From Lachnospiraceae bacterium (GTDB lineage: Bacteria; Bacillota; Clostridia; Lachnospirales; Lachnospiraceae), in contig JAFOEY010000037.1 in assembly GCA_017387565.1 (NCBI GenBank), positions 111,962 through 175,961 of the forward strand: a stretch of DNA of 64,000 nucleotides, in the 5' to 3' direction. Numbering within the stretch: the first letter of the stretch is position 1; each line of letters opens with the position of its first letter. The position numbers and the translations under genes were made by a program. This document shows positions 33,573 to 50,025 of the stretch, piece by piece. The notes under the pieces are model-generated. The model did not search any database. It saw nothing but the letters and a program-made list of their open reading frames with translations, and was not told the origin of the DNA.

Positions 33573-34253
33573 TTATTCTAAATATGCTTTCAAAGATTCC
33601 ACTAATTTATGCACCATTGTTCCTGGATCATATTGCGATGGTCTGTGTCCGCCTTTTTCAAATTCAGCCATTCTACGTTTTGCATGCTTTATGGCAACAT
33701 TTACCCCATCATATATATCTACCATGTTATATATATCTTCATAATTCTTTTGGTATGTCCCATCACCTAAATTATTTTTCTTGAAAATCTCATCTAGTTT
33801 ATCATTCCATTGATGTCTATGCAATGCAGAATCACTGTAATAAAAATGCAGATATAACCAATATTCAAAAGATTGATTACTCCAAGCCACATTATATCCT
33901 CTATTTATAGCCTCTTGTATTGCTTGATCAAAGTCATCAAAATCATCTTTATCAAAAACAATCCATACATTTTGATAGATAATTTTTGCATCCTTTATAA
34001 TCTGATCTGCTACCTCAACAAGTCTAGTCGTGGAACAACCTTCACCATGTACATCAATAAGCGGTTGCTCAATAATATCCACTACGCCACCTACCTTTTC
34101 TTGTATAAGTTTTTGCATACCTTTAAAATATAATGGCTCGGTACGTTCACCTTCTGTAACAATTAGATAAGAATTTGCTTTGGTAGTTTTGTATTCATGC
34201 TTCCTTTGAGTTCTAGCTTCTCGTCTCTTTTTAAATAAATCATCCGAACCCAT
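33573..34253 (-). CDS. RloB/AbiLii-like TOPRIM-type defence protein
   Basis: This 226-residue protein matches the RloB family. A TOPRIM-like active site is suggested by E34 in VTEGERTEP and D101/D103 in VFDKDD. RloA-RloB pairs are known from restriction loci, and the lactococcal AbiL abortive-infection system is the same pair. Its ATG directly follows the stop codon of the ATPase gene (TAAATG), so the two are translationally coupled. Likely role: nuclease or effector activated by RloA during phage infection (inference). Confidence 0.85.
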   Translation of the reverse strand: MGSDDLFKKRREARTQRKHEYKTTKANSYLIVTEGERTEPLYFKGMQKLIQEKVGGVVDIIEQPLIDVHGEGCSTTRLVEVADQIIKDAKIIYQNVWIVFDKDDFDDFDQAIQEAINRGYNVAWSNQSFEYWLYLHFYYSDSALHRHQWNDKLDEIFKKNNLGDGTYQKNYEDIYNMVDIYDGVNVAIKHAKRRMAEFEKGGHRPSQYDPGTMVHKLVESLKAYLE

Positions 34254-35447
34254 TTACTTACCTTCTTTCATGCTGAATTCTTTTAACCACGGAATTCCGC
34301 CATATACCCCAGCCAAATAATCTCTTTCAAATGAAGCATCTGACCTCACTTTAAAATCTGATAAAGCAGACAATTCTGAGTATCCAAATTCATCTTTTTG
34401 TACAAACCAAATCTGATCTCTTCTAAAAAATTTTTTATCCAAGAGAGTAGTATCATGTGTTGTGTAAATCAGCTGAGCCTGTGAATCATTTTCATAAAAC
34501 AAATCAATAATAAATTTCAACAAAAGAGGATGTAGTTTGATATTCAATTCATCTACAAAAATTGATTTATCATAAAGAATAGCTGTACGCGCATAAATGA
34601 ATAGCATAATACTTTTAATAGTTCCTTCTGATTCAAAAAACAAGTCCAGAGGATGCAATTCGCCATCTTTTCCCATGTGATAGGTTACAAACTTAATTTC
34701 TTTGTCACTATCGTCATATTCAATATCTCTAATGCCTGTATCGATAGCAGACAAAAAATCTACCAATGCACTTTTTTCTTGATCAATTAATTTAGGTAAG
34801 AGTGCCTCTAAAAGTCTTGTATCCTCGCAAAAATTTGTTGGAACAACTAATGTATCCATCACACCAGCATAAACAACCTTAAAAATACTAGATTTCATTT
34901 TTAACTTATTGAAAAAAGTTAAAACCAAAGTCTCAACCGGAATTTGTTCCTTATATACATCACATTCTTTTCTTACACTTGAACCGAATTCAACTTTTTC
35001 TGTCGTACGTTCAAAAATTGTTGAAGTTCTCTTGGTCTGTAGATTTTTTCTATATAACCACTCCGTAACAATGCAATTTGCATTATACTCGAATCCATAC
35101 TTATATTCATAATCTCCTAAAATCTGTACAATCTGGAATTCCGAATTTTCCTCTTCACTATCGAACGAAAATGGCTGATAAAATGTTTTAATAGCTGTTG
35201 CTTCACCATCTTCAACATTATTTAATGACTCCGCAATAATTCTTTGAAAATAAGTCATCGCCATATAAATATTTGATTTCCCACTTGCATTTGCACCATA
35301 AATTGCAGCGACCCTAAGATACTTTTCTTTTGTTCCATAGTCTATTAAATTGCATTGATGCTCCTTATACGCATTAATTGCTGTCAAATCTAAAATTGTC
35401 TCTTCCTTAAATGACAAAACATTTTTTAACATAAATTGCACTAACAT
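34254..35447 (-). CDS. RloA/AbiLi-like AAA ATPase
   Basis: This 397-residue ABC/SMC-type AAA ATPase has Walker A in YGANASGKSN (50-59) and an acidic Walker B in SIFVDELN near residue 300, followed by the HPLL and TTHDT switch motifs. It is the sensor/motor half of RloAB (AbiL-like) phage defence. AGGAGG lies nine bases before the ATG, and a good promoter lies 27-55 bases upstream. An IS21 element is inserted ~60 bp upstream of the promoter, leaving it intact. Confidence 0.87.
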   Translation of the reverse strand: MLVQFMLKNVLSFKEETILDLTAINAYKEHQCNLIDYGTKEKYLRVAAIYGANASGKSNIYMAMTYFQRIIAESLNNVEDGEATAIKTFYQPFSFDSEEENSEFQIVQILGDYEYKYGFEYNANCIVTEWLYRKNLQTKRTSTIFERTTEKVEFGSSVRKECDVYKEQIPVETLVLTFFNKLKMKSSIFKVVYAGVMDTLVVPTNFCEDTRLLEALLPKLIDQEKSALVDFLSAIDTGIRDIEYDDSDKEIKFVTYHMGKDGELHPLDLFFESEGTIKSIMLFIYARTAILYDKSIFVDELNIKLHPLLLKFIIDLFYENDSQAQLIYTTHDTTLLDKKFFRRDQIWFVQKDEFGYSELSALSDFKVRSDASFERDYLAGVYGGIPWLKEFSMKEGK

Positions 35448-35644: not shown

Positions 35645-36421
35645 CTACTGTATCATGTTTTGATCTATACCATAGACCTCCCTCATGGATATGTCCTTTG
35701 ATGGATCAATGCTTTCGATATTGATTTTGTATGCGTCATATATGATTCGATCCATGATGGCATCTGCCAGTGGGTTATCATCACCACCCAGGCGGTCGTA
35801 CCATCCTTCTTCTCTGAACTGGGAACAAAAGATAGTGGAAGACTTTTTCCTGCGCTTATGTATCAGTTCAAAGAGATTCTTGGATTCTGATTCATTAAGT
35901 TTTAGCAACAGCCATTCATCAATGATGAGCAGCAAGGGTTTGGTATATTTTGAAAGCACTTTTGTAAATGTACCATCATTTCTGGCAGCTTCCAAATCAA
36001 GAAGCAGGTCAGGAAGACGAACATATTTTACTGTGTAATACTGCTTGCAGGCTTCCATGCCGAAAGCACAGGCCATGTATGTCTTGCCGCTTCCGGTTGC
36101 ACCGGTAATAAAGATGTTCCGGTACTCTGCAATGTATTCGCAGGTGGCAAGGCGGTTAATAAGTGCTTTATTGAGCTTTCGCCCTGAACGATAGTCAATG
36201 CCGGCAATACAGGCATCAGGTTGTTCAAGTTCGGCGTTGCGTATAATACGTTTTAAACGATTGTTTTTGCGGCTGGTATATTCGACGTCAACCAGCATAC
36301 CAAAACGATCTTCGAAGGAAATATCCTTCATAGAGTTGTCATCCATTTGTATACGGAATGCATCTGCCATAGCTGTGAGACGCATTTCAATAAGTTTGTC
36401 TGCTGTACTTTGATTAATCAT
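35645..36421 (-). CDS. istB: IS21 family transposition helper ATPase IstB
   Basis: This 258-residue AAA+ ATPase has Walker A GATGSGKT near residue 105 and Walker B LLLIIDEW. IstB assists the IstA transposase in target selection. The ATG has AGGAGGTAAG upstream and overlaps the end of istA by 8 bp. The longer upstream start was rejected. Ends with the usual C-terminal SMREVYG motif. Confidence 0.95.
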   Translation of the reverse strand: MINQSTADKLIEMRLTAMADAFRIQMDDNSMKDISFEDRFGMLVDVEYTSRKNNRLKRIIRNAELEQPDACIAGIDYRSGRKLNKALINRLATCEYIAEYRNIFITGATGSGKTYMACAFGMEACKQYYTVKYVRLPDLLLDLEAARNDGTFTKVLSKYTKPLLLIIDEWLLLKLNESESKNLFELIHKRRKKSSTIFCSQFREEGWYDRLGGDDNPLADAIMDRIIYDAYKINIESIDPSKDISMREVYGIDQNMIQ

Positions 36422-37970
36422 TGTGCTTACCTCCTGATTTATGGGCATAGTATCTGGCACCTCTTGTGATGCCGTATGAATTAGTTTTATTCTCTTCCTG
36501 AGTCACCGGGATGTCACTATCCTTTAAAGTGACCAGAAGATTTTTGATACTTTTATAGCTGGGTGAACTGGAATAGCTTAATGCTTTCTGGCATGCGAGT
36601 TCTAGTTTTTGTGGAGAATGTTTTTCCGCAAGCTTTAACAGTCCCATACAGCTTCGATAGGATTGTTGTTCCACCCTGCCTGAGGTAAGTAGTGCATTGA
36701 CAACTTCATATGTGTTTGGTCCAATCTGATTCGCCCATTTCCGAAAGCGATCACCATTCCACTCCAGATATTTCTGATGGTCTTGTGGCATATGTCCGGA
36801 CTGAGTGGAGTATTGTCCAGGACGTCCATAAAGACGTTTGTGAGAGGCGATTCGATTGTGATTAATAAATATTTCAATCGTTGTTTCTGTTATTCGCACA
36901 TCGACCTTATTTTTGATATACTGATAAGGCACAGAGTAGTACATCTTGTCTACTGCGATGTGATAATTAAACTGAACGGTAGCGGTTTTCCAATCGCTGA
37001 GTTCAAACCGGGTAGCAGGCAGCGTTGCCAGTAATGGCATTTCTTCCCCAAGAAACAGACTACGCCTGCTACCTTCTTTTTTCTGGAAGGTGTTAGCATT
37101 GAACTGTTCAAGTTTTTCCCTAATGGCGGAATTTAATTCAGCCAGAGAAAAGAACTGTTCATTCCGAAGAGCTGCAGTAATCCATGTAGATACATTTCTT
37201 ACTGTGCCTTCTGCGCCAGGCTTGTCCTTGGGTTTTCGCACCCGTGCCGGAATAATGGCGGTTCCGTAATGTTCAGCTAATTCATGGTATGTGGTGTTTA
37301 ATGACGGAGTGTACCAGTCTCCTGTGTGATAAACGGCCGTAAGGCAGTTATCGGGAACGAGTATCTTGGCAACTCCACCGAAGTATTCATACATGTGCAC
37401 ATGGGCTGTAATCCATGCCTTCTGTTTTTCATTGATGAATGCTTCTACGTAGGCATACATGCTATAAGTCATGACGCCCACAAAAAGCCATGCTTCTGTA
37501 ATCTCGTCGGTATCGGGGTCGATGATATGAGCCGGATCTCCGGCCCAGTCTACTTCAACCTGTTCGCCGGGTTTTCGTGGTATGTGCATGGTTGCTCTTC
37601 GTTTTTGCTCATCCTGTTGGATGTAGTAGCAAAACTGTGAATACATGAGTGGCTCTTCGCCTGCCATACGGCAATCCTCACAGTATTCGCTCCATAAGAG
37701 CTTTTTACTTACACCATTTCGCAATAATTCTTTGCGAATATAAGCATAGTCAGGCATACGCTTATTGGTAGCTGACTTTTCCTTGGGAAAGAGAATGTTT
37801 TCCAAGGCATCATCTGTCATGGTTTCATCAAGAGGCCAGGAGATATTTATCTCATCAGCTTTTTTGAGAACCTTTGACACAGTGTTTCGGGACACACTGC
37901 AACTTAATGCAATATTCCGTTCGCTGAAGTTCAGACTATGAAGTCTGATGATTTCGCGATACTTGGTCAT
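36414..37970 (-). CDS. istA: IS21 family transposase IstA
   Basis: This 518-residue DDE transposase starts with a helix-turn-helix (SERNIALSCSVSRNTVSKVL) and has a retroviral-type integrase core with the acidic triad visible in VEVDWAGD, LVPDNCL and KPGAEGTVR. AAGGAGG lies before the ATG. It forms an operon with istB and is uninterrupted. Confidence 0.95.
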   Translation of the reverse strand: MTKYREIIRLHSLNFSERNIALSCSVSRNTVSKVLKKADEINISWPLDETMTDDALENILFPKEKSATNKRMPDYAYIRKELLRNGVSKKLLWSEYCEDCRMAGEEPLMYSQFCYYIQQDEQKRRATMHIPRKPGEQVEVDWAGDPAHIIDPDTDEITEAWLFVGVMTYSMYAYVEAFINEKQKAWITAHVHMYEYFGGVAKILVPDNCLTAVYHTGDWYTPSLNTTYHELAEHYGTAIIPARVRKPKDKPGAEGTVRNVSTWITAALRNEQFFSLAELNSAIREKLEQFNANTFQKKEGSRRSLFLGEEMPLLATLPATRFELSDWKTATVQFNYHIAVDKMYYSVPYQYIKNKVDVRITETTIEIFINHNRIASHKRLYGRPGQYSTQSGHMPQDHQKYLEWNGDRFRKWANQIGPNTYEVVNALLTSGRVEQQSYRSCMGLLKLAEKHSPQKLELACQKALSYSSSPSYKSIKNLLVTLKDSDIPVTQEENKTNSYGITRGARYYAHKSGGKHND

Positions 37971-38381: not shown

Positions 38382-38413
38382 ATAAACTCTAGTTTTTTGT
38401 AGATACCATAAAG

Positions 38414-38469
38414 ATTACTCGATGATAGTAGCAACACGGCCTGAACCTACAGTACGTCCACCTTCACGG
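38414..38469 (-). repeat. left island boundary: duplicated 3' end of tuf (att-like)
   Basis: These 56 bp match 49970-50025 at 55 positions. On the minus strand they encode [17 protein letters not shown] and a stop, the C-terminus of EF-Tu, preceded by unrelated sequence. The only difference, ACT for ACA, is synonymous. This is the pattern left when an element integrates into the 3' end of a gene and regenerates it. Confidence 0.92.
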
Positions 38470-38571: not shown

Positions 38572-38616
38572 GTGTATCAAAAATGTATCACATCATGATA
38601 CTCTTCCGTGATACAC
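38572..38616. repeat. GTGTATCA repeats at left island end
   Basis: GTGTATCA at 38572-38579 and TGATACAC at 38609-38616 are inverted copies with TGTATCAC and TGATAC between them. The 38470-38722 gap around them holds no gene. Such clustered repeats next to an att site commonly bind integrase or excisionase; that role is inferred. Confidence 0.5.
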
Positions 38617-38722: not shown

Positions 38723-40321
38723 TCAATTTTTATTATTTTTCAAAGTCTCTTCTAATTCACTTAACAGAGGAATCATTCCTGCTGGTACCAAATCAGAGAG
38801 TTCTTTATATGCCTCCTTACATTCTTCCAAATTACACTCATTAAAATTCATTTCACATATAACACCCTCCTCTAAAAGTTTTTTCTCTATCTCCTCATTA
38901 ACATCTACAATTTCGGGATTATTCATGTTACTGATAATATCCAAAAAATCACCTATATTATTTTTTATGTCTCCAATTTTTTTTAAATCATTTCCAAGTT
39001 TTCCAATTGCATCATATTGTATCCCATTCAATTCATCTTTTAACTCGTTATACTTATTTGTCCAATACTTGATATATTTTGCCCTATGTATGGGCTCATA
39101 TATGTCTTTATTTATTACAACTGGAAATATCTTTTTTTCATATAGTTTAGAGCGCATAACCTCCATGACTTCGTACATACAATTCATAGACTTTAAATAA
39201 TCATCCGATATCAATATAATTATAAAGTCCATTTCCGCTATGGAGTCCATATATTCTTTTATACTATCCCATATTCCAACATCTATTTTATCTCTATGTA
39301 TTTCAATCCCCTGTTTTGCTTTAAAGTACTCATATATATCATTTGCTTGACTATCATTTTTCCAACTGTATGATAAAAAAATGTTAACATTACTGTTTTC
39401 GCCCATACCTTTTACCTCGTTATCATTTATTGTGCAACTATCCAAATCTATATCATCCATTTTTTTATCTATCATTTCAGAAAGAAATGCATACTCCTTT
39501 TTCAAACATAAATATTCTTTTTGTTTCTTTGAATTACGTATAAATGCAGCAAAAAATTGTCTATCCCATTGTTTTATACGTTTTAAATCTTTTTGAATTT
39601 GTCTGTCTTTTATTACATCTCTAACATCTAAATACATCTTTTTATTAGTCAAGACAGCTTGAATGGCTCGTTTTTGTGTTATATCCAGCAATTCTGCCTT
39701 ATCAAATAACTTTATAAATAAATTTACATAATTTTCAACATTTTGAAATTCTTTAAGATCTGACTCTATTGTCAGAATTCTATCATATAAATCATTAATA
39801 CAAATTATAATTTTTTTAACCAATTTATATATATCTATATTTGATTTTAATGGCACTATTTTGGTTTTTCTATTTCTGACATTATAAAAAAACAGACAAG
39901 GAATTTGTTCTTCAGGAATATTATAATTTTGTGCAAATTCTGAAATAGTTTGGCTATGTTTCAATTTCCAATCTATATTTTCGTAATTTGGATAATTATA
40001 ATTAAATCCACCCTTATTATCATCTATTCGAGCCTTGTCCAGTATCGTTATAAAAGGACATCCATTACCTACATAAGATTTTCCACCTTTTTTTCTAAAA
40101 AAAGATGACCACTCTTTGCAACTTGGCGATGAAAATATAAATAATATTTTTTTCCCAGTTAAATCATTTAACGATTCCCAATCGTGTTCAATTTTTTTAT
40201 AAACATTTTCACAATCTGCATAACGAGCAATTAGTGACATTATCCATATATAATCACTCTTTTGTGCTCGATCAATAATTTCCCTATAGCATTCGCTCAA
40301 ACCAATATATGTTATTTCCAT
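38723..40321 (-). CDS. TIR-domain defence protein with unassigned N-terminal sensor
   Basis: This 532-residue protein ends its conserved core with a TIR domain (~311-445: NVNIFLSYSW, VGIWDSIKEY, DFIIILISDDYLKSMNCMYE). E374 in CMYEVME sits where catalytic Glu of NAD-degrading TIRs is found. The first ~175 residues contain alternating strands and helices, with IPCLFFYN reminiscent of a thioredoxin-like fold but no CXXC pair. No membrane segment is present. It is the last gene of the island operon, 72 bp after the ATP-binding gene. Likely role: NAD+ depletion or signalling when phage infection is sensed. Base composition is notably AT-rich. Confidence 0.85.
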   Translation of the reverse strand: MEITYIGLSECYREIIDRAQKSDYIWIMSLIARYADCENVYKKIEHDWESLNDLTGKKILFIFSSPSCKEWSSFFRKKGGKSYVGNGCPFITILDKARIDDNKGGFNYNYPNYENIDWKLKHSQTISEFAQNYNIPEEQIPCLFFYNVRNRKTKIVPLKSNIDIYKLVKKIIICINDLYDRILTIESDLKEFQNVENYVNLFIKLFDKAELLDITQKRAIQAVLTNKKMYLDVRDVIKDRQIQKDLKRIKQWDRQFFAAFIRNSKKQKEYLCLKKEYAFLSEMIDKKMDDIDLDSCTINDNEVKGMGENSNVNIFLSYSWKNDSQANDIYEYFKAKQGIEIHRDKIDVGIWDSIKEYMDSIAEMDFIIILISDDYLKSMNCMYEVMEVMRSKLYEKKIFPVVINKDIYEPIHRAKYIKYWTNKYNELKDELNGIQYDAIGKLGNDLKKIGDIKNNIGDFLDIISNMNNPEIVDVNEEIEKKLLEEGVICEMNFNECNLEECKEAYKELSDLVPAGMIPLLSELEETLKNNKN

Positions 40322-40393
40322 CCTTATTCCTCAGCATGATTATTGTTTTTCTTAAACTCAAAATATCAAAAAGATTTTGTTTACTAGAAAAAT

Positions 40394-41914
40394 TTACTTT
40401 TTCTTATAGCGTCTATCCCGATTACTTCCCATCGTTTCAATATAATCCGATAGACCCTTCAAAATATCTTTGGTTCGGCTTTCCTTTAATCCCAACAATT
40501 CACAGAAATCCCAAATACCATACTCTTTTCCCTCTTCCATAAATTCAAGAATTCTATCATATTGCATTTGAGTTTTCTTTGTCACTTTCTTATCGCCGCT
40601 TTTTGTCGCCGCTTTTTTATCGCCGCTCTTTATCGCCGCTTTTTTATCGCCGCTTTTTTTGAAAGAAAGAGACAAAATCGTTCTGTCCGGATCAAATCTT
40701 TCTTCAATCACTGGTTCTTCCCAACCTTCATCTGCCCAAACATTAAAAATATTCGGCACACCACTTCCGGCACGTTCACCGATATTGATAAGATTAAACA
40801 TTTTCATAAGAGCTTTGTTTCTAGGATCGGATTCGCCACCAAGACGCATCTGCTTTTTACCCGTTCTGACATAACCCGGATTTGCCAAAATCAGCTTGTC
40901 CGGTTCCTTTCGGATAACAACACCACGCAAACCGTGATAATCTGCATTAATCAGGCAGTTTGCCAAAGCCTCACGAAGTGCCTTGTGCACCGGAGTGTCG
41001 TCAATGCGTTCACCACCGACCATTTTGAAAGGTACCTTAATGTCTTTAATAATCTTGTTATAAACTCTAAAATAAAAGTCACACACGTTTCCGGACCATT
41101 CACCAGAACTGGACTGCAATCTGTCGCTCCAGCGTGTTGTAGGATCTAACTCTTCCCTGTAGTCCAAAAAATACTCAGGGAAGTGGCGTACAATGTTATA
41201 TTCATCACCAAACATCAGCATACCTGCTGCCGTAGGATGCAGCTTTCCGTCTTCCTCTGAAATAGCAGCCGCACCAATGCTTCTTAAATACTCATGGTCG
41301 CTCAGTCGTTCAAAAGGATGTCCTTCTTTTAAAGAACGATGGCTGTTACGATATCCGTGAATGGTATCATAATTCAAATCTTCCATCGGAACCTTATCAA
41401 GCACTTCCATATCCATAGTGCGCTCGGTCTGGTCACGGAGCATAGTCTTTACCTGCAATCTGGTACAATGATAATCGCCCTCATAATTACGGCGGAAAGT
41501 GCCATTAAAAATGTCATTGTTGATGTACACTGGTTTCTGCTCGCGCTTCGCCATGGGCACATAAATAACCATGATAACATCTTTGTTGTCACCGACTTCA
41601 TAGGTCTGCACGTCATCTTCTGACAGGAGATTGATATTTACCTTTTTAGGATTATTAATTGTATCCCAAAACTCCTTGCATAACTTGGAAGCATTTTGAA
41701 GGCCGGTAGTTCTCCAACTACCATCTTTGTTTTCTTTGACACCAAGAATAATGACACCACCATAGCAATTTGCAAAAGCAGAATAGGTATCCCACAAAGA
41801 AACTGGCAAGCCACCTTCTGCTTTTTTCACTTCTCTTCTGTTGTCTTCTCTGTATTCATCAAATTGTGAAAGGTCAAAAGTTTTTTCCAAATTGCTCATC
41901 TCACTTTCTGTCAC
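40394..41914 (-). CDS. AlbA_2/Schlafen-type ATP-binding protein
   Basis: The N-terminus contains an AlbA_2 (Schlafen-like) domain (NRREVKKAEGGLPVSLWDTY, then ANCYGGVIILGVKENKDG). A HATPase_c_4-like region follows (HKALREALANCLINADYHGL, and NPGYVR). Near residue 435 lie three copies of KSGDKKAA/T. A winged-helix-like region ends the protein (GIWDFCELLGLKESRTKDIL). Such proteins are usually annotated as transcriptional regulators or ATP-dependent helicase-like proteins and are frequent in defence islands. A GTG start fits AAAGGA in the 9-bp gap after the preceding gene. Length 506. Confidence 0.85.
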   Translation of the reverse strand: MTESEMSNLEKTFDLSQFDEYREDNRREVKKAEGGLPVSLWDTYSAFANCYGGVIILGVKENKDGSWRTTGLQNASKLCKEFWDTINNPKKVNINLLSEDDVQTYEVGDNKDVIMVIYVPMAKREQKPVYINNDIFNGTFRRNYEGDYHCTRLQVKTMLRDQTERTMDMEVLDKVPMEDLNYDTIHGYRNSHRSLKEGHPFERLSDHEYLRSIGAAAISEEDGKLHPTAAGMLMFGDEYNIVRHFPEYFLDYREELDPTTRWSDRLQSSSGEWSGNVCDFYFRVYNKIIKDIKVPFKMVGGERIDDTPVHKALREALANCLINADYHGLRGVVIRKEPDKLILANPGYVRTGKKQMRLGGESDPRNKALMKMFNLINIGERAGSGVPNIFNVWADEGWEEPVIEERFDPDRTILSLSFKKSGDKKAAIKSGDKKAATKSGDKKVTKKTQMQYDRILEFMEEGKEYGIWDFCELLGLKESRTKDILKGLSDYIETMGSNRDRRYKKK

Positions 41915-41923
41915 ATAATTCCT

Positions 41924-42157
41924 TTAAAGATTTCTTTGCTGTGTCATATGTTTTCCAATCACAAAACAGCATTGTTCAAATGCGAACTGTTGATATTCTG
42001 GTTCAACTTTATCTATACTCTTTAAAAAATCATCCAACTTATTTGCACACTCAATACTTTTCCATATCTGGTCATTATGATGTTGCTGTATTTGTTGTTT
42101 TAACTGCTCTTGAATACTATTTTGATTAAATATTCCGTAAATATAATTATCATACAT
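41924..42157 (-). CDS. hypothetical 77-residue protein
   Basis: This small Gln- and acid-rich protein (LKQQIQQHHNDQIWKSIECA) has two predicted amphipathic helices and a C-terminal FEQCCFVIGKHM. The ATG has AGGAG ten bases upstream. It sits between the HEPN-like gene (25 bp) and the AlbA gene (9 bp), so it belongs to the operon. I do not recognise the family; a partner, antitoxin or adaptor role is possible. Confidence 0.65.
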   Translation of the reverse strand: MYDNYIYGIFNQNSIQEQLKQQIQQHHNDQIWKSIECANKLDDFLKSIDKVEPEYQQFAFEQCCFVIGKHMTQQRNL

Positions 42158-42182
42158 AAAATTTTATCTCCTAAATAAATAC

Positions 42183-42782
42183 TTATACAAAATCAGGCAT
42201 ATCACTTTTCATAAGTTTATTCAGCAATTCCTTATATTTATCTCCCTCATTACCAAATACGATTTCATTATTAATTGATAGCATTAATGCCTGTCCACCG
42301 CAAACGCCATCTCTATCATAATCTTCTGGTATATCATCTGCTGATGTTGGTATTTCAATTTCATTTATCCACCATTTATCAAGCTTATTATATATTCTTA
42401 GCATATCTGAAAATAACTGTGCATCTTCTTCACCAAAACCTATATTTAAATTTTTAAGCAGTTCATGAGTAATATCATTTCTCCTTTTGCGAATTTTTTG
42501 ATATATATCATAATCCTCTTGTGTAAGAGCCTCAGCATCCATAAACCATTTTAACGATGCATTCTCAAGATTCTTATCCAAGTTTCTTACTTTCTTTTTA
42601 TACGTATCGGACTCTTCACATACAATTCTGTCACCATCCATATAAAAATGTTCTGAGTAGAAACTCCTGACTTGTTCAATTGCAAACTCTTTCAGGCATT
42701 CATAATTCATAACAAAAACAGCCCCAAAATTTATATTAGTTTTCAAAATATTTTCATCTAAAACGTTCTTCCAGTTATCCAC
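42183..42782 (-). CDS. HEPN-like protein, candidate RNase
   Basis: This all-helical protein has RNDITH at 101-106, matching the RX4-6H motif of HEPN ribonucleases (R101, H106, with Asn after Arg as in many members). HEPN proteins often act as toxins or abortive-infection RNases. The start proposed is GTG, because AGGGGG lies six bases before it; the earlier ATG has no ribosome binding site. Length 199. It follows the RT-nitrilase gene by 48 bp. Family assignment beyond the motif is tentative. Confidence 0.6.
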   Translation of the reverse strand: MDNWKNVLDENILKTNINFGAVFVMNYECLKEFAIEQVRSFYSEHFYMDGDRIVCEESDTYKKKVRNLDKNLENASLKWFMDAEALTQEDYDIYQKIRKRRNDITHELLKNLNIGFGEEDAQLFSDMLRIYNKLDKWWINEIEIPTSADDIPEDYDRDGVCGGQALMLSINNEIVFGNEGDKYKELLNKLMKSDMPDFV

Positions 42783-42830
42783 TAATATCCCCCTCATATA
42801 CCTGAATATAATATAATGCACCTATATGTT

Positions 42831-45800
42831 TTATTTATTACCACCAAATCTTGCTGATGTCTTTGCAATCTTAATTTTCTGCTCCTTAAAGAGCTTTTGT
42901 TCCTCTTCATATTTTTGGTTTCTATTATAATTCAGATACTCTTGGATCTTATTATCGAAGTCTACCTTTTCATCTTTCTGATACTTTTTTACTTTCCCCA
43001 GTTCAATAGTACCTATAATTATATCATCCTTGTCACCACCTTTAATTTGCAGTACATTCCTATCATTTCTGCCAAACGGACCTGTTATTCTTGAATCTCC
43101 ATATATAGAGGTATTTGCCTGAACAATAAATACATGCAAATCTCTCGCAGTAGTTTCAATTATATTAGAGAAATAAGAAGTATCCCTATTATGTTCCGGA
43201 GTAAAGATGATATCCACTTTATCTTTATACAAGGCTCTTGCAATTATATCTGTAAATTCATAACACAAAAACAGCCCATAATCTATCCCTCTATTATTTA
43301 TCATTTGATAGACCGGTTTTTCTTGATCTACACATATATATTTTTCTAAAGCTAATATTTGACGTTCCATAGGAGCATAATCATTTTTTTCACGCGCAAA
43401 CAACACAGAACTTGTATATCTCCCTGTGTTCACTGGTGCAAATATTGCAACATTATTATAAGCCTGATGACCACTAGTCACATATTGCAGTCCCGAAACA
43501 ACAGTTATACCACTTTTTCTTACAAAAGCCAAAACATCTGAAATCCACTGTAAGGGCATATAGAACTCTGGAAATACTAAAAAATCTACTTTGTCATTTT
43601 TTCCATTCGCATATGCTCTATCCATAAAATCAATCAGTCGTAATCTGTCTATCTCAACATCGTCTCCACACGCAAGACCCAAACAACATCTTTTAGTATC
43701 TAATTTGATATTGGCAATAGCAATCTTAATTTTCTCTTTAACAGCACATTTATTTCCTAATTCAATTTTTTGCAAAATATATTCGTTATGCATTTCATTT
43801 TTAATTGAAATCGCTAAATGCGATGCTGTACCTCTATTAATCTGATTTACTTCACAGAAATAATTTTCAATAAATTCCAGTTTCTTCTTTACGACTGTAT
43901 TATCTTCATCTCCATAATAATTACCACCATTGCAAAATTTTCTTAAAAAGACATATTGATAGATTTCATCCAAATTTATAAATCTTGGCGATAATTTAGA
44001 CTTTTTACTATCACGTATCAAAAGATTCATACTATGAATTTGCTCTGGTAATATATTGGTTAAATCACAATTTTCATCTATATCATCTGAATAATTAACC
44101 AATGGGTATGATACCAAATGATGATTAAAAAGATTGGCTTTACGCATCTTTTTTGCAAGTGCCAAAACCGTCTTTTTTTCCTTTCTACAATACTGAATGT
44201 TCAATGCCAAGACTGATGAAATGCATATATCAAAGTGCAAAGCAAGATCTTTCTTTAGTTTTGATGAAATTCTTCTTTTTTTATTCCTTTTTACATCTTC
44301 AATATCACTAACCTTTATCTGCTTAATTGCATCTATAATATTTCCTTGAAACTGCTTCCACGCATACCGATTTGTATCCGAAGTCAACATGAAATAATAC
44401 ATTGCATTTATCCAATTACTCGAATATTCTAATGCTTTGACCCCTTGAAAGAAACGTAGTATGCTGTCGCTCTCATTTTGTCTACGAATCTTTTCCTCTC
44501 TTGTTACATATTTTTTTCTAACTCTATTATTCATTACAATTTGAGACATATGCCAACCCAATTGAAAACGATCAATTTCCAATTGTCCAATATCTCTTAT
44601 TTTTGTTTCCACGCCAATCCCATTTTTGGCATACGCAGCTTCTTCAAAATCAACCAAACTTAATTCTGTATCCGGTATTACATTCATCTGACTTGGGTAT
44701 GTTATAGTCTTCAAAAGTTGATTTATTAACGTCTTCGACCCTGTTTTATTAAAATACATAATCTTGACTTTTTCTTTTTGAATATATAGGTTAGGATACT
44801 TATTTATTGTATATTTTCCTGATTCTACATTGACCAAAATATTATTCTTTTCTACCAAATATCTATCAAATGCGTTATCTTCCGATATATTTTTTTCATC
44901 ACCAGTAACGTCAACAACAAGAATAATATCATCAACATATCGCCCATAATGCAATACATTTGGATTTTGACTTATATCATTATCAAGTTCATACATATAA
45001 ACATTTGCCAATAACATTGAACTAAACAATCCTATTGGTAAAATATACTCTTTATTTTCAATGCATTGTTCTAAAATACGGTACTCATTAACAACCCCTG
45101 TATATCTTTCAAATATTCTTTGTATTATTAAATTTAAAAACTTTAGTGCTTTGTATCTTTCATCATCGCCCATCTTTTCATCTAATAAGTCAAATTTCCA
45201 AACTACAGAATAATAAAAAGACTTTACATCAAGAGAAAAAAGCATTTGACTTCTGATAAAACGGTTTAACGTTGCAACAGTTTCAATTGCATCATTCTTC
45301 CAATTACAATACTGTGGGAAATATATTTTAAACAGCTTATTTTTAGTAAAATTAATTGAGTCTAAAAAATCATCTTGTTTATTGTATAAGACATAGTCAT
45401 CAATAGCATTTCCATAACTTTTTGCAGAAACCAATTTCTTCTCAAAAACAAGTTTCCCTATCAATACCGTCCACAAAGTTTCCAATAAATGAAGTTCTAT
45501 TGGCATATCAATAAAGAAATTTACTTTATTAACTTCTTTTTCTTCATTGGATTCAGCAGATATAAACAATTCATTTTTGACAGAATTACTTGTAAATGAC
45601 TTAGGCATAACATAAAAATCAATCTTACCTAACCAGTCATCAATTTGCTGGGTGTTTACTTCTGCATCCGGATCAGCTAATAGTTGTGCCAGATTTTCTA
45701 AAACCTTCAACATATGTTTTTCATCTGCTTCCAGCTCTGCAATTTTCTTTTTCATAAAAACAAAATTTTTATTATAATGATAATAACTTTTAAGTTTTTT

Positions 45801-45848
45801 ATAAGAGCCAAGTAACATCTCCTTATTTTTTTTTAAATTCGTAAACAC
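42831..45848 (-). CDS. defence reverse transcriptase-nitrilase fusion (DRT class 1, UG1/UG5-like)
   Basis: Residues ~110-380 are a reverse transcriptase domain: the first catalytic Asp in SLDVKSFYYS and YVDD at 304-307 in GRYVDDIILVV. Residues ~706-960 are a nitrilase (C-N hydrolase) domain with its Glu-Lys-Cys triad visible at E761 (FPEFY), K821 (AREKND) and C862 (FLCYEFT). RT-nitrilase fusions define the DRT1 group of anti-phage reverse transcriptases. The start proposed is a GTG 19 bp after the endonuclease stop; the longer frame would overlap that gene by 98 bp. Length 1005, within the family range. Confidence 0.9.
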   Translation of the reverse strand: MFTNLKKNKEMLLGSYKKLKSYYHYNKNFVFMKKKIAELEADEKHMLKVLENLAQLLADPDAEVNTQQIDDWLGKIDFYVMPKSFTSNSVKNELFISAESNEEKEVNKVNFFIDMPIELHLLETLWTVLIGKLVFEKKLVSAKSYGNAIDDYVLYNKQDDFLDSINFTKNKLFKIYFPQYCNWKNDAIETVATLNRFIRSQMLFSLDVKSFYYSVVWKFDLLDEKMGDDERYKALKFLNLIIQRIFERYTGVVNEYRILEQCIENKEYILPIGLFSSMLLANVYMYELDNDISQNPNVLHYGRYVDDIILVVDVTGDEKNISEDNAFDRYLVEKNNILVNVESGKYTINKYPNLYIQKEKVKIMYFNKTGSKTLINQLLKTITYPSQMNVIPDTELSLVDFEEAAYAKNGIGVETKIRDIGQLEIDRFQLGWHMSQIVMNNRVRKKYVTREEKIRRQNESDSILRFFQGVKALEYSSNWINAMYYFMLTSDTNRYAWKQFQGNIIDAIKQIKVSDIEDVKRNKKRRISSKLKKDLALHFDICISSVLALNIQYCRKEKKTVLALAKKMRKANLFNHHLVSYPLVNYSDDIDENCDLTNILPEQIHSMNLLIRDSKKSKLSPRFINLDEIYQYVFLRKFCNGGNYYGDEDNTVVKKKLEFIENYFCEVNQINRGTASHLAISIKNEMHNEYILQKIELGNKCAVKEKIKIAIANIKLDTKRCCLGLACGDDVEIDRLRLIDFMDRAYANGKNDKVDFLVFPEFYMPLQWISDVLAFVRKSGITVVSGLQYVTSGHQAYNNVAIFAPVNTGRYTSSVLFAREKNDYAPMERQILALEKYICVDQEKPVYQMINNRGIDYGLFLCYEFTDIIARALYKDKVDIIFTPEHNRDTSYFSNIIETTARDLHVFIVQANTSIYGDSRITGPFGRNDRNVLQIKGGDKDDIIIGTIELGKVKKYQKDEKVDFDNKIQEYLNYNRNQKYEEEQKLFKEQKIKIAKTSARFGGNK

Positions 45849-45867
45849 AACTATCTCACTTTCTTTT

Positions 45868-47397
45868 TTACCAATGATGTATATCCGACAACATAATCTG
45901 CCTATCCAATCCAAATATCTTACGCAACTCTGCATGAGAATATGGATTCTCCATATGGTCTTCAATAAGCATAATTAGGTTTGAAACTGTTATACCAGAA
46001 CCATGAACACCCGAAGCGTTTACTTCATCCATAATCTGTCTATCTATATGTGGCACAAATCCGCCACTTATATATGTAAAATATCCTATCGGATGTTTGC
46101 ATGTACTATAATTACTGATATTCTCTAAGTAATTATGTACCATTCTATTGTGATGGTCTCCACTAATACTGTATTTGCTGTAAGCTTTATTATCTATAAT
46201 TGCCTGATAGCCCTCTGCATCTGAAATCAGCAGAACATCCGGTGCAGATTTTGCCCCAGTCTGTCCTAAATGGATTGCCTCATATCCAAATATATCCTGA
46301 AACAAACTGGTTGTTGCTTTTTCAAAATCGACAGCCTCATCCCTACCTTGAAATGCCATATCTCGATAATGGCTCAAATATCCACCTACTGCACCATGTG
46401 GATATGTTTCAATAAGAACGCTCTCTGTAAATCTCGGGTCTGTACCTGATATATTACAAATATAATCTACGACCGCTGAATCTATTTTGCTTACAGGTCT
46501 CAATGACGAATAATTAAAAAACGCTCGTAATATTCTATTTCTATCTATTACTTTGCTTGAAATAGCGGCGGTATTTAAAAGATTCCTTGTATCCTTCTGA
46601 TGCCATGGGTCTACACCGTATTTTCTTTGATAAACATCATTTTCTACAGGATACTGTATAAATGCTGGTATATCTGCTACTAAGCCTTCAACCTCTCCTC
46701 GTTTTTCATCCGGTATTCCGATTATTCCTTTTTCACGATATACAAGTTGTGTATAATCGAGCCAATTCATCATCGTATTAGCCACATCCATCAAATTACC
46801 TTCTGACGCATTATGCTTTTCTAAATAGTCGCTTTCAAATATTTCATCCCCATACGAACGGTACTGTAATATTCTTTCAACAACTTCGTTATAGCACTTA
46901 TCAGATTCATTTTCGGCTTGAATTGCAACAATCAGAGCAATTTCTCTTTGTGACAATATTAATAATCTTTCATCCAAAAGTAATTTCAACAAGAAATAAA
47001 ATGGTCGAATTTTAAAACGGGGAGCCACTTTCACAGAGGCTGAATATGCGGAAGGATACTGAAACCTCAACACCTGTTTCTTCAAAACTGGAACAGGTGA
47101 TTTTCCTTCCATAATTGCCTCACCTGCAAGAGTTAAAAACACAGTGTCTTTCTTTTCAAACCATAATCCCAAACTGTATAACATAGCCGCATGGGTTCTT
47201 CCACCAGAACCAGAAGCATCCCGACGTTCTCCAACACGTTTTGTTCCCGTTTGTTCCAGTTCCACTTCAAACTCAATGTGAGAATCTCTATTCCTCGTCC
47301 ACTTTTTTCCAAGAGCTGTACTGCAAAAAGCTGCCAACTCCTCTGGGATAGGATTAAGTTTTCTTTTCGGACGTGTAACCCACCAATAATCTTGCAT
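45868..47397 (-). CDS. FokI/AlwI-like restriction endonuclease
   Basis: This 509-residue protein has a PD-(D/E)XK nuclease core near the C-terminus: PD at 386-387 and D402-N-K404 in AIIDNKAYSKY, followed by a helix and IGYFTYISGGF, much like the cleavage domain of FokI. The N-terminal ~350 residues should bind DNA (WWVTRPKRK, winged-helix-like segments). It follows the methyltransferase by 10 bp with AGAGGTG before the ATG. It is the restriction half of a type II or IIS system. The recognition site cannot be deduced. Confidence 0.85.
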   Translation of the reverse strand: MQDYWWVTRPKRKLNPIPEELAAFCSTALGKKWTRNRDSHIEFEVELEQTGTKRVGERRDASGSGGRTHAAMLYSLGLWFEKKDTVFLTLAGEAIMEGKSPVPVLKKQVLRFQYPSAYSASVKVAPRFKIRPFYFLLKLLLDERLLILSQREIALIVAIQAENESDKCYNEVVERILQYRSYGDEIFESDYLEKHNASEGNLMDVANTMMNWLDYTQLVYREKGIIGIPDEKRGEVEGLVADIPAFIQYPVENDVYQRKYGVDPWHQKDTRNLLNTAAISSKVIDRNRILRAFFNYSSLRPVSKIDSAVVDYICNISGTDPRFTESVLIETYPHGAVGGYLSHYRDMAFQGRDEAVDFEKATTSLFQDIFGYEAIHLGQTGAKSAPDVLLISDAEGYQAIIDNKAYSKYSISGDHHNRMVHNYLENISNYSTCKHPIGYFTYISGGFVPHIDRQIMDEVNASGVHGSGITVSNLIMLIEDHMENPYSHAELRKIFGLDRQIMLSDIHHW

Positions 47398-47407
47398 TCA
47401 ATCACCT

Positions 47408-48484
47408 CTAATCATCATTCCCTGTATATGCTTCAATACCCTCATATGGAATTCCCGCAAATGTTTTCAGAATTGCTTCAAAAATTACTCTAGCTCCTTT
47501 TTGAGGAACAGCCATACCTATTTGTTTTCTTACAGATTCCTTGCTTCCTTCAAAAACATAATCATCAGGAAAAGTTTGTAATCTTGCTCTTTCCCTGTTT
47601 GTTAAAGCTCTTGGTTCCGCATAGTGATAAATATGTGTTCCACCACCACCAGAGCCAGTTACTGTATATGCAGGTTTTGTTGGATCCAATCGTTTATATA
47701 TCTGACTAATTTTGGCTCCCTTAACCTTCAACTGCAATTCTTCAGGAATATCAGCAGTAAATGCATTCTGTCCCGGCTTAATATATTTTAACCTTTCTAC
47801 AACCTGTTGTGATTGCTTTGTTAATTCGTTATTTGTTGCATTTTTAGGTATCTTTGGTACTTCCAATGCCGTTTTACAAGTTACATCTACATTTTTATAT
47901 GGTTCAGGACTAGGTATTTTAAATTCATATGATAAATCTGCCCTGATTCCCACAATAATCATTCTATGTCGTGCCTGTGGTACACCATATTGCTCAAATT
48001 TATATAAGTTAGGATATATTCTATATCCTGCTTCAATCATATCCTCTTTAATTTTTTCAAACGCCTTGCCTTCATTTGCACTTTTTAATCCACCTACATT
48101 TTCCGCCAAAAACCATAATGGTTTATATCGCTTTAATACCTTTATCCCATATGAATACAATGGTCCAAACGTTCCATTAAACCCTTTTTGCTCGCCTACA
48201 ACCGAAAAATCATTACATGGAAATCCAAAAGCTAACGCATCAATATCTCCCAGTGGTTCTATATCCAATTTACGTACATCTCCACAAATCACCGAATCAG
48301 GCTCAGAAGGACAAATATTTCTAGTATATGTTTTACAGGTATCTAAATCATAATCGTTTGCCCACTTATGAATAATTCGATACTCTGAATCATCTATTTT
48401 AGAATTAATAGCAGCATATGCAAGCCCACCAGGTCCACAGAATAATTCTCCCAATCTAAATTCCTTAACTTCTTTCGACTTCAT
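47408..48484 (-). CDS. DNA (cytosine-5-)-methyltransferase
   Basis: Conserved C5-MTase motifs appear in order: LFCGPGGLAYAA (I), GFPCNDFSVVG with catalytic C90 (IV; PCN in place of the usual PCQ), ENVGGL (VI), QARHRMIIVG (VIII), and RLQTFPDDY with NKQIG-like GMAVP (IX-X). The target-recognition region between VIII and IX is short. TAATG overlap with the upstream regulator couples translation. It protects host DNA from the downstream endonuclease. Length 358. Confidence 0.93.
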   Translation of the reverse strand: MKSKEVKEFRLGELFCGPGGLAYAAINSKIDDSEYRIIHKWANDYDLDTCKTYTRNICPSEPDSVICGDVRKLDIEPLGDIDALAFGFPCNDFSVVGEQKGFNGTFGPLYSYGIKVLKRYKPLWFLAENVGGLKSANEGKAFEKIKEDMIEAGYRIYPNLYKFEQYGVPQARHRMIIVGIRADLSYEFKIPSPEPYKNVDVTCKTALEVPKIPKNATNNELTKQSQQVVERLKYIKPGQNAFTADIPEELQLKVKGAKISQIYKRLDPTKPAYTVTGSGGGGTHIYHYAEPRALTNRERARLQTFPDDYVFEGSKESVRKQIGMAVPQKGARVIFEAILKTFAGIPYEGIEAYTGNDD

Positions 48485-48693
48485 TATATTTCTTCTCCAT
48501 TCGTTAAAATAAAATTCCTTTTAAACTCTACCCCAACCGCATCTGCAATTTCGTTTAAATCATCAATGGTAAAGCTTTCTCTCTTCATCTTTGCATTAAA
48601 ACTTTGTGGAGATTTACCCAATCTACGTGCCAGTTCAGCCTCACTCATATTACATCTAACACACAAGATTTTAATTTGTTCAGATATCGTCAT
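48484..48693 (-). CDS. XRE-family controller protein of the restriction-modification operon
   Basis: This 69-residue helix-turn-helix protein (MSEAELARRLGKSPQSFNAK) is too small for more than DNA binding. It heads the island operon, overlapping the methyltransferase start (TAATG), like the C proteins that time restriction gene expression. AGGAGG precedes the ATG. Confidence 0.85.
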   Translation of the reverse strand: MTISEQIKILCVRCNMSEAELARRLGKSPQSFNAKMKRESFTIDDLNEIADAVGVEFKRNFILTNGEEI

Positions 48694-48745: not shown

Positions 48746-48823
48746 TACAAACATTAAGCATATACCTTTCTCATTTCTTTCTTCTATGATTTACTCGTAA
48801 ACTTCGACACATCATTTACAGAC

Positions 48824-48868
48824 AACAAAACCTCACTGCTGGAAATGTACCAGCGGTGAGGTTTTGTT
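48824..48868. terminator. bidirectional terminator after the tuf-proximal unknown gene
   Basis: AACAAAACCTCACTGCTGG pairs with CCAGCGGTGAGGTTTTGTT with a single mismatch over 19 bp. It separates the unknown gene at 48871 from the controller-led operon, so that operon has its own promoter. Confidence 0.9.
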
Positions 48869-48870
48869 GT

Positions 48871-49776
48871 TTAATCTTCAATATCTGATTCTATTTTTTC
48901 TTCAGCAAACTTGTATTTCTTATTCGTTAACGCTTCTGGATTATTTCTTTCTTTTCCCTTTGGATAAGGTCTAACATATGTAACTCTACCATCCTTCAAT
49001 CTGCGTGGATGACCTCGCACTCCCCATACTGGAACAGTATACTGTCTACCAGAATGAGCCACACTATACTTAATCTCGTTTCCTTCCTCATCTACTGGAA
49101 TCACTCGTTTAACCAGCACTACTCGTTTCTCAGTATGAATTTCAGTCTCTAACTGAGGTGTTATAGGACCTCTCTGTTCTATAATCCGAATTTCTTCCGG
49201 TCGGTTATTAAGTTCATACTGAACACCTACCCAAAAATTTGCTAACCAGTATGTCAATTTTGCAAGATCATCAAACGAATAGTAATCCATTGTTTCCTCG
49301 CTGATAGCTATAGGAAGAACATATGCTTCTTCATCTTGGCTTATTTCAAATACCGCCGTCTCCATTTCTTCTCCTGTATCCTTGTCAACAAAGCAGATAG
49401 TTATTCCACAGTAGACGGATTTTCCGATATATTTATACTTTACAAACAAACCATATACATCGGCAGTAGGTCTTAAATGTTTAATACTATCAAGCAACAG
49501 ACCAATCTGCGTATCAGCACTAATATTCCCAAAAACACTTAATTCAAAATCCAACAGAGAAACTGGCTGTGAAAAGAAGCCATATTTTCTGCCAACCAAC
49601 GAAATTTTATCAGCATAATCATCAGATAATTCAAAATAATCAGAAGGAAGATTAAAATCAACATTTTTCTCTCCAATGCTGATATTCGATAAATTTAATT
49701 TCTCTTGCACACATTGTCTCCAATGCCATTCTATTTCTCTTGCAGATGAAGGTAGTTTATTTTTACGAAAATTCAA
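48871..49776 (-). CDS. unknown protein next to the right island boundary
   Basis: This ~301-residue soluble protein has no known catalytic motif. Its C-terminus, VRGHPRRLKDGRVTYVRPYP and GKERNNPEALTNKKYKF, is a basic, Arg/His-rich tail of the kind found in several mobile-element proteins. The start proposed is TTG at 49776, because GGAGG lies seven bases before it; an ATG at 49821 is the alternative. It lies just beyond the tuf terminator and ends at its own terminator. No integrase signature (Tyr or Ser recombinase) was seen. Confidence 0.7.
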   Translation of the reverse strand: MNFRKNKLPSSAREIEWHWRQCVQEKLNLSNISIGEKNVDFNLPSDYFELSDDYADKISLVGRKYGFFSQPVSLLDFELSVFGNISADTQIGLLLDSIKHLRPTADVYGLFVKYKYIGKSVYCGITICFVDKDTGEEMETAVFEISQDEEAYVLPIAISEETMDYYSFDDLAKLTYWLANFWVGVQYELNNRPEEIRIIEQRGPITPQLETEIHTEKRVVLVKRVIPVDEEGNEIKYSVAHSGRQYTVPVWGVRGHPRRLKDGRVTYVRPYPKGKERNNPEALTNKKYKFAEEKIESDIED

Positions 49777-49900
49777 TATTTGCCCTCCTATCAAAGTTGC
49801 TGTGTTCTGCATGTTGCTCATCCTTTTCAACAAGCCGCCACAGTTTATAAAGTGTAATACATCTGAAGTTAACAATGCGTCGGCTTTGCCGGACGCACAT

Positions 49901-49969: not shown

Positions 49970-50025
49970 ATTACTCGATGATTGTAGCAACACGGCCTGA
50001 ACCTACAGTACGTCCACCTTCACGG
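49970..50025 (-). repeat. right island boundary: 3' end of the functional tuf gene (att-like)
   Basis: These 56 bp are the last 17 sense codons and stop of tuf, matching the orphan copy at 38414-38469. Confidence 0.92.

Follow-up and report, generated by a model that had tools for sequence, protein, structure and literature searches.

A probable decayed mobilizable element at the 3' end of tuf and its stack of defence-type genes in a Lachnospiraceae genome

Why do eight genes of several defence types stand in one tight row, and how did they come to lie there? The question is raised by a stretch of 64,000 nucleotides from a Lachnospiraceae bacterium (assembly GCA_017387565.1, contig JAFOEY010000037.1, positions 111,962 to 175,961 of the forward strand), hereafter 'the window'. 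Its positions 38723-48693 encode, in 5'-to-3' order on the minus strand, a small helix-turn-helix (HTH) protein, a C5-methyltransferase, a FokI-type restriction enzyme, a reverse transcriptase (RT) joined to a nitrilase, an HEPN-like protein, a 77-amino-acid (aa) protein, an AlbA_2/HATPase protein, and a TIR protein. An earlier note on this DNA offered two readings of the row: several systems sharing one transcript, or, in part, one undescribed multi-gene system. Its interpretation did not include the fact that the row lies in a block flanked on either side by a copy of the tuf 3' end. We give a probability of about 0.8 to the reading that this block is a decayed mobilizable element, resembling a cis-mobilizable element (CIME), at the tuf 3' end, carrying stacked independent defence modules that are probably co-transcribed. 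Four features read from the sequences carry this view: the duplicated tails, a tuf-linked integrase clade, a shared repeat pair at island ends, and the occurrence of the modules apart from one another elsewhere.

The island is framed by the last 56 bp of tuf, which occur twice as a direct repeat (98% identity in a repeat search), on the minus strand at 49970-50025 and 38414-38469, 11,556 bp apart; the two tail copies agree at 53 of 54 bases. They enclose 11.5 kb with all eight operon genes and an orphan open reading frame (ORF) of 334 aa. The first copy is still joined to tuf and is attL-like; the displaced copy is attR-like. A genus relative (G302), whose tuf is 99% identical to that of the window, tells the two apart: positions 38410-38469 are identical to its tuf tail (60/60), and the joined copy differs from it by one silent base, which makes the displaced copy the probable native tail and the copy at tuf probably element-borne.

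The same duplication recurs in other genomes. Among the nine genus genomes, the window's own included, tuf was matched in seven and extra tuf-tail copies in four. When 22 tuf 3'-end loci were compared (the window's among them; not a random set, being the genus tuf loci plus loci with an integrase or AlbA gene near tuf), a second tail was found 2.9-15.9 kb behind tuf in 11. The stretch between tuf and the second tail in G301 holds an XRE gene (recognized by eye), a tyrosine integrase (Phage_integrase), a DUF6017 protein, a Mob_Pre relaxase, a methyltransferase, Vsr, and a type IIG-like enzyme. Other islands differ in cargo: in G303, two displaced tails stand in tandem and enclose Wadjet genes (JetC and JetD scanned), JetC lies near a tuf tail at a contig end in G086, and G159 carries an NgoBV-type enzyme, a methyltransferase, and PDC-S46. 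The scanned defence gene of G220 and G221 lies beyond the second tail.

Integrases related to that of G301 form a clade tied to this site. With the G301 protein as query, 84 of 250 family genomes gave a match at E ≤ 1e-40, for a total of at least 119 matches with at most eight candidates scored per genome. All 16 matches of at least 50% identity are linked either to tuf itself (13) or to a copy of its tail that shares their contig (3): 12 have a listed tuf upstream of them, on the same contig and in the same orientation, G229 was linked by sequence, and G136, G027:C74, and G143 were linked through the tail copy. Of the 103 matches below 50% identity, three are at most 15 kb away from a listed tuf: G152:C11, G190, and, on the opposite strand, G150; proximity was judged among the tuf matches listed, and some genomes had no tuf listed. 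A tree was built from 31 integrases: one branch, with support 100/100, separates 14 tuf-linked sequences (13 of the 16 together with the G301 query) from the other 17, which are the next best matches, with G152:C11, G190, and G150 left out.

The island ends share a further feature. At 38573-38590, 122 bp from the displaced tail, the minus strand of the window carries the direct-repeat pair TGATACA-N4-TGATACA, with an 11-bp period. Defined as an exact repeat of at least 7 bp with at least two G/C and an 11-bp period, and sought at inner island ends, such a pair is present at 16 of 19 ends, 15 times at 120-124 bp from the tail (14 of 18 when the window is excluded), and in 3 of 484 interior windows. 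Control periods of 8, 9, 10, 12, 13, 14, and 15 bp gave 0, 0, 4, 3, 0, 0, and 0 of the 19 ends. We infer that these pairs are integrase arm sites, and they may resemble the arm repeats of Tn916. Their letters vary among elements, as would be expected if arm specificity had diverged along with the integrase. One island, L120 of G303, has at its tuf side a pair of the TGGCTCTA type that differs from its far-end pair (TGATAACA type) and matches the pair of G136, and its truncated integrase equals the start of the G136 integrase; this island is therefore probably chimaeric and accreted.

What kind of element would the window island be? An integrative mobilizable element (IME) has its own integrase and relaxase, and scans of the nine island ORFs against Pfam, PADLOC, and NCBIfam found neither family; nor did the window's own genome yield a match to the tuf-type integrase at E ≤ 1e-40, with eight of nine candidates scored. 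A CIME keeps att-like repeats, has lost its integrase and transfer genes, and has related complete elements at the same site, which is what is found here. The lack of an integrase could also be claimed for a different history, in which the duplicated tail is a relic of gene conversion or duplication and the block an ordinary defence island assembled by homologous recombination and insertion sequence (IS) elements, one of which, of IS21 type, stands just outside at 35645-37970. We consider that history highly improbable: islands that do carry an integrase are bounded by this duplication too, both in this genus and in others, the integrase clade is linked to tuf, and the repeat pair sits at a common distance from the tail.

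We turn to the contents of the island. The ORF list places all eight minus-strand ORFs where the earlier note had put them, and its single-direction row with tight spacing is borne out: with the likeliest starts, picked from ribosome-site context and comparison with relatives, the gaps in operon order are -1, 10, 19, 48, 25, 9, and 72 bp. The gene types that it named (type II restriction-modification (R-M), a reverse transcriptase of the defence-associated (DRT) class, an AlbA/Schlafen-like protein, and TIR) agree with the same family scans, the HEPN assignment weakly so.

The first three genes look like one R-M module. The small Cro/C1-like HTH protein (48484-48693; PF13443, HTH_26, E 1.8e-5) is a possible R-M controller by its position. 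The C5-cytosine methyltransferase (47408-48484; PF00145, E 1.3e-73) adjoins, across a 10-bp gap, a type II endonuclease with a FokI-type, AlwI-like cleavage domain (45868-47397; PF09254, E 2e-14). The enzyme is 23-30% identical to annotated AlwI-family enzymes on plasmids, and a peptide-pattern scan of viral contigs, which finds close relatives only, returned no relatives of it.

The fourth gene (42831-45848) encodes an RVT_1 protein that PADLOC scores as RT_UG5-nitrilase (E 8.5e-188), far above Drt1a (1.4e-23). Its start is taken as GTG 45848, which gives 1005 aa, the length of a relative in L011, and therefore leaves no overlap with the restriction gene; the ORF from the first TTG, which would overlap that gene, was rejected. 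The RT catalytic YxDD motif, here YVDD at residues 304-307, is kept in 44 of 44 relatives, and the C-terminal nitrilase carries the Glu-Lys-Cys residues of class 3 DRTs. Of the matches listed by VIA-align, 50 entries all cover the nitrilase part and are uninformative for the RT part. To our knowledge, UG5 RT-nitrilases have been little tested biologically, and the present comparison gives them named relatives and invariant catalytic residues.

The remaining genes are a putative RNase effector of HEPN type (42183-42782, probably from GTG 42782), with the R-x4-H motif RNDITH and a PF18730 match (E 3.7e-4) that is weak and below its cut-off; the 77-aa ORF (41924-42157), which has no convincing family match; a Schlafen-like, RecG-related AlbA_2/HATPase_c_4 protein (40394-41914; PF04326, SLFN_AlbA_2, E 3e-8; PF13749, E 9.8e-10); and the TIR protein (38723-40321), with PF13676 (TIR_2, E 2.9e-14) at residues 314-422 and an N-terminal half without a family; a single-sequence structure model of the whole TIR protein was useless (predicted local distance difference test score 34.8). 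Between tuf and the operon lies the 334-aa orphan (48871-49875, minus strand). It has nothing better than E 0.04 in the three family collections and one weak match to a PHROG without known function (E 3.2e-4), and homologues were absent from the 60 other relative genomes, plasmids, and phages searched. Outside the island, beyond the IS21-type element, stands an AbiL-type pair (AbiLi ATPase and RloB/AbiLii; 33573-35447).

Do these genes make up one system? The earlier note had itself suggested looking for co-occurrence of the RT, HEPN, 77-aa, AlbA, and TIR families. A genome scan confirmed 470 RT-nitrilase relatives, the best 80 of which, with two others, give 82 loci; 63 of these have at least 2 kb upstream of the RT, and some are short. 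Homologues of the HEPN, 77-aa, TIR, restriction enzyme, and HTH genes each occur in none of the 82 (tblastn, E ≤ 1e-2), AlbA matches in four, and methyltransferase matches in two. Neighbour genes were clustered, one scanned member giving each cluster its name: type I R-M genes (HsdS, HsdR, HsdM) lie no more than three genes from the RT in 16 of 82 loci and RhuM in 6. In 13 of 82 loci (e.g. L078:6124-7233), a separate gene downstream falls into one cluster with a nitrilase protein (one representative scanned), so RT and nitrilase may act as two proteins. In L004 (G294), the RT-nitrilase gene stands directly behind what by eye looks like brxL of a BREX operon.

The other families keep different company. 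A relative of the HEPN-like protein (56% identity) occurs in one other of 299 family genomes (own included), where it stands (L096) directly before pglX, followed by an AlbA_2-like gene (by eye), pglZ, and brxL, that is, in a BREX operon. Plasmids yielded two distant HEPN relatives and two TIR-domain matches and no relatives of the 77-aa protein; peptide-pattern scans of viral contigs, limited as above to close relatives, found none of the HEPN or 77-aa proteins. Of 249 other family genomes, 2 contain relatives of the 77-aa protein, 9 contain TIR homologues (E ≤ 1e-10), which mainly cover the TIR part, and 37 contain AlbA relatives (E ≤ 1e-60). Of the 41 other AlbA places, 29 were examined, three of which start no more than 80 bases from the edge of their locus; in one of the 29, in G147, the 77-aa gene stands in front of AlbA. 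The AlbA gene is also the first gene behind tuf in L201 (G177; 94% identity) and L202 (G220; 88%), lying in G220 inside a 2.9-kb stretch bounded by a tuf tail.

Because elsewhere the RT-nitrilase occurs without detectable HEPN, 77-aa, or TIR homologues, the HEPN relative stands in a BREX operon, AlbA nearly always lacks the 77-aa gene, and TIR homologues match in the TIR domain, the eight genes are best read as several independent defence modules that appear to travel apart. That the five genes from RT-nitrilase to TIR form one undescribed system, in which the RT would sense phage and HEPN and TIR would execute, draws on their tight spacing on a single strand, on the 77-aa/AlbA pair of G147, and on an AlbA 3' fragment that follows the RT-nitrilase in L087. 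Set against 0 of 82 RT loci, 1 of 29 AlbA loci, and an HEPN relative that belongs to a BREX operon, it is very unlikely, and we rejected a new multi-gene system for want of recurrent co-occurrence. The first of the two readings in the earlier note, several systems on one transcript, thus fits better than the second, which gains no co-occurrence beyond that single 77-aa/AlbA recurrence.

Several observations weigh against a decayed element with independent modules. With no integrase in the island, its origin is argued by analogy, and since the sequence outside the displaced tail differs from that of G302, no clean empty site was seen. Half of the tuf loci (11 of 22) have no second tail, at least five of these stopping at a contig edge. 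The repeat pair was spotted by eye first and counted afterwards, its counts are not independent since several islands are near-copies, the ends in G229, G143, and G086:C8 lack it, and in G220 the pairs lie at 69 and 44 bp only. On its tuf side, the window island shows no pair within 200 bp, and the two ends could thus derive from different elements. By eye, G232, G027:C70, G118, and G005 have no obvious defence gene, which leaves a defence enrichment at tuf unsupported. The independence of the modules was tested mainly in one family, among the matches listed and often on short contigs, and DRT1 (UG1) is a related family distinct from the UG5-nitrilase of the window. Excision, co-transcription, and all activities of the stack we infer.

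With these points in the balance, the decayed element at tuf remains our preferred reading, and its history may be sketched. The ancestor was probably an IME that encoded a tyrosine integrase specific for tuf and a relaxase of Mob type, as relatives still do. It would have entered the tuf 3' end by site-specific recombination, putting its own tail onto tuf and moving the native tail to the far end; EF-Tu would be unchanged because the element-borne tail is joined to tuf. The present copy would be movable, if at all, only with an integrase in trans. Its cargo would be a set of separately inherited modules: a type II R-M system that would cut unmodified DNA, together with a small HTH; a UG5 RT-nitrilase; an HEPN effector (RNA cleavage) and a TIR protein (NAD+ depletion), which would be further abortive modules; and a 77-aa/AlbA_2 pair.

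The genes are probably read as a single transcript, with a promoter before the HTH gene; an end at the hairpin beyond the displaced tail is plausible and is the simplest guess. A hairpin scan listed strong minus-strand hairpins of 14 pairs at 49937-49906, after tuf, and of 12 pairs at 38381-38354, beyond the displaced tail; inside the stack (48693-38723) it listed only two weak minus-strand stems of 7 and 5 pairs, both within the AlbA gene. A long symmetrical hairpin upstream of the HTH gene (48823-48869) is listed on the plus strand, and known RNA families have no match in 33000-54000 at gathering thresholds. Internal terminators and promoters between modules were what the earlier note said would speak against its operon; no strong internal terminator is listed, and the sigma-70 promoter scan was uninformative (60 found vs 56.1 expected).

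How far might a shared transcript bind the modules together? The R-M controller could govern the whole stack, with R-M serving as an addiction and expression platform that stabilizes the other passengers, which is compatible with the decayed-element reading. The HTH gene does come first, no strong terminator interrupts the row, and R-M genes of type I lie close to the RT-nitrilase in those 16 loci; the HTH family match is modest, and no RT-nitrilase locus has an HTH homologue, so we hold this as a possibility that we somewhat doubt. Fuller functional coupling would make the stack a portable immune cassette at its tuf docking site, with layers (R-M for exclusion, and RT-nitrilase, HEPN, and TIR as suicide modules) delivered in a fixed order by one HTH-controlled transcript; this we think unlikely.

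The tuf 3' end apparently is a docking site new to the literature. The word tuf is absent from the main text of PMC5704250 and from PMC6907783, and a partial search of the literature on tuf or EF-Tu as an integration site returned no report, a weak negative as subscription journals lay mostly outside the search. If the site holds up, the end of a universal gene serves in this family as the docking site for one clade of mobile elements, of which several carry defence genes; with the att site, integrase clade, and repeat pair known, defence cargo behind tuf could be found systematically, and docking there suggests a natural route for module stacking.

How does the locus compare with known systems? 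Like BREX operons with accessory genes, in which (L096) the HEPN relative and the AlbA_2-like gene stand, it joins such genes in a row, and unlike them it lacks pglX, pglZ, and brxL among its nine scanned ORFs. An enzyme with a FokI-type cleavage domain beside a methyltransferase and a small HTH recalls AlwI-type type II R-M, from whose plasmid members it is distant in sequence. With DRT1, DRT5S/L, and class 3 DRTs at large, as described in the accessible part of PMC13275509, the RT-nitrilase shares an RT with YxDD and a C-terminal nitrilase with Glu-Lys-Cys, and no HEPN, 77-aa, or TIR partner was found beside its relatives in the 82 loci. The mechanism of DRT1 and template-free synthesis by DRT5S/DRT5L are described there; the window protein differs from DRT1 in its PADLOC assignment and is shorter, with 1005 aa where the solved DRT1 chain has 1229 aa. 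A parallel to the whole is offered by CIMEs and IMEs as treated in the accessible part of PMC5704250, which defines CIMEs, describes tandem accretion, and names rpsI, rpmE, and rpmG as translation-gene targets. The window island shares with these elements att-like repeats at the 3' end of a translation gene, the loss of integrase and transfer genes, tandem accretion in its relatives, and R-M cargo, and is set apart from those described in that part of the source by its target, tuf, and by a cargo that stacks five kinds of defence-type module.

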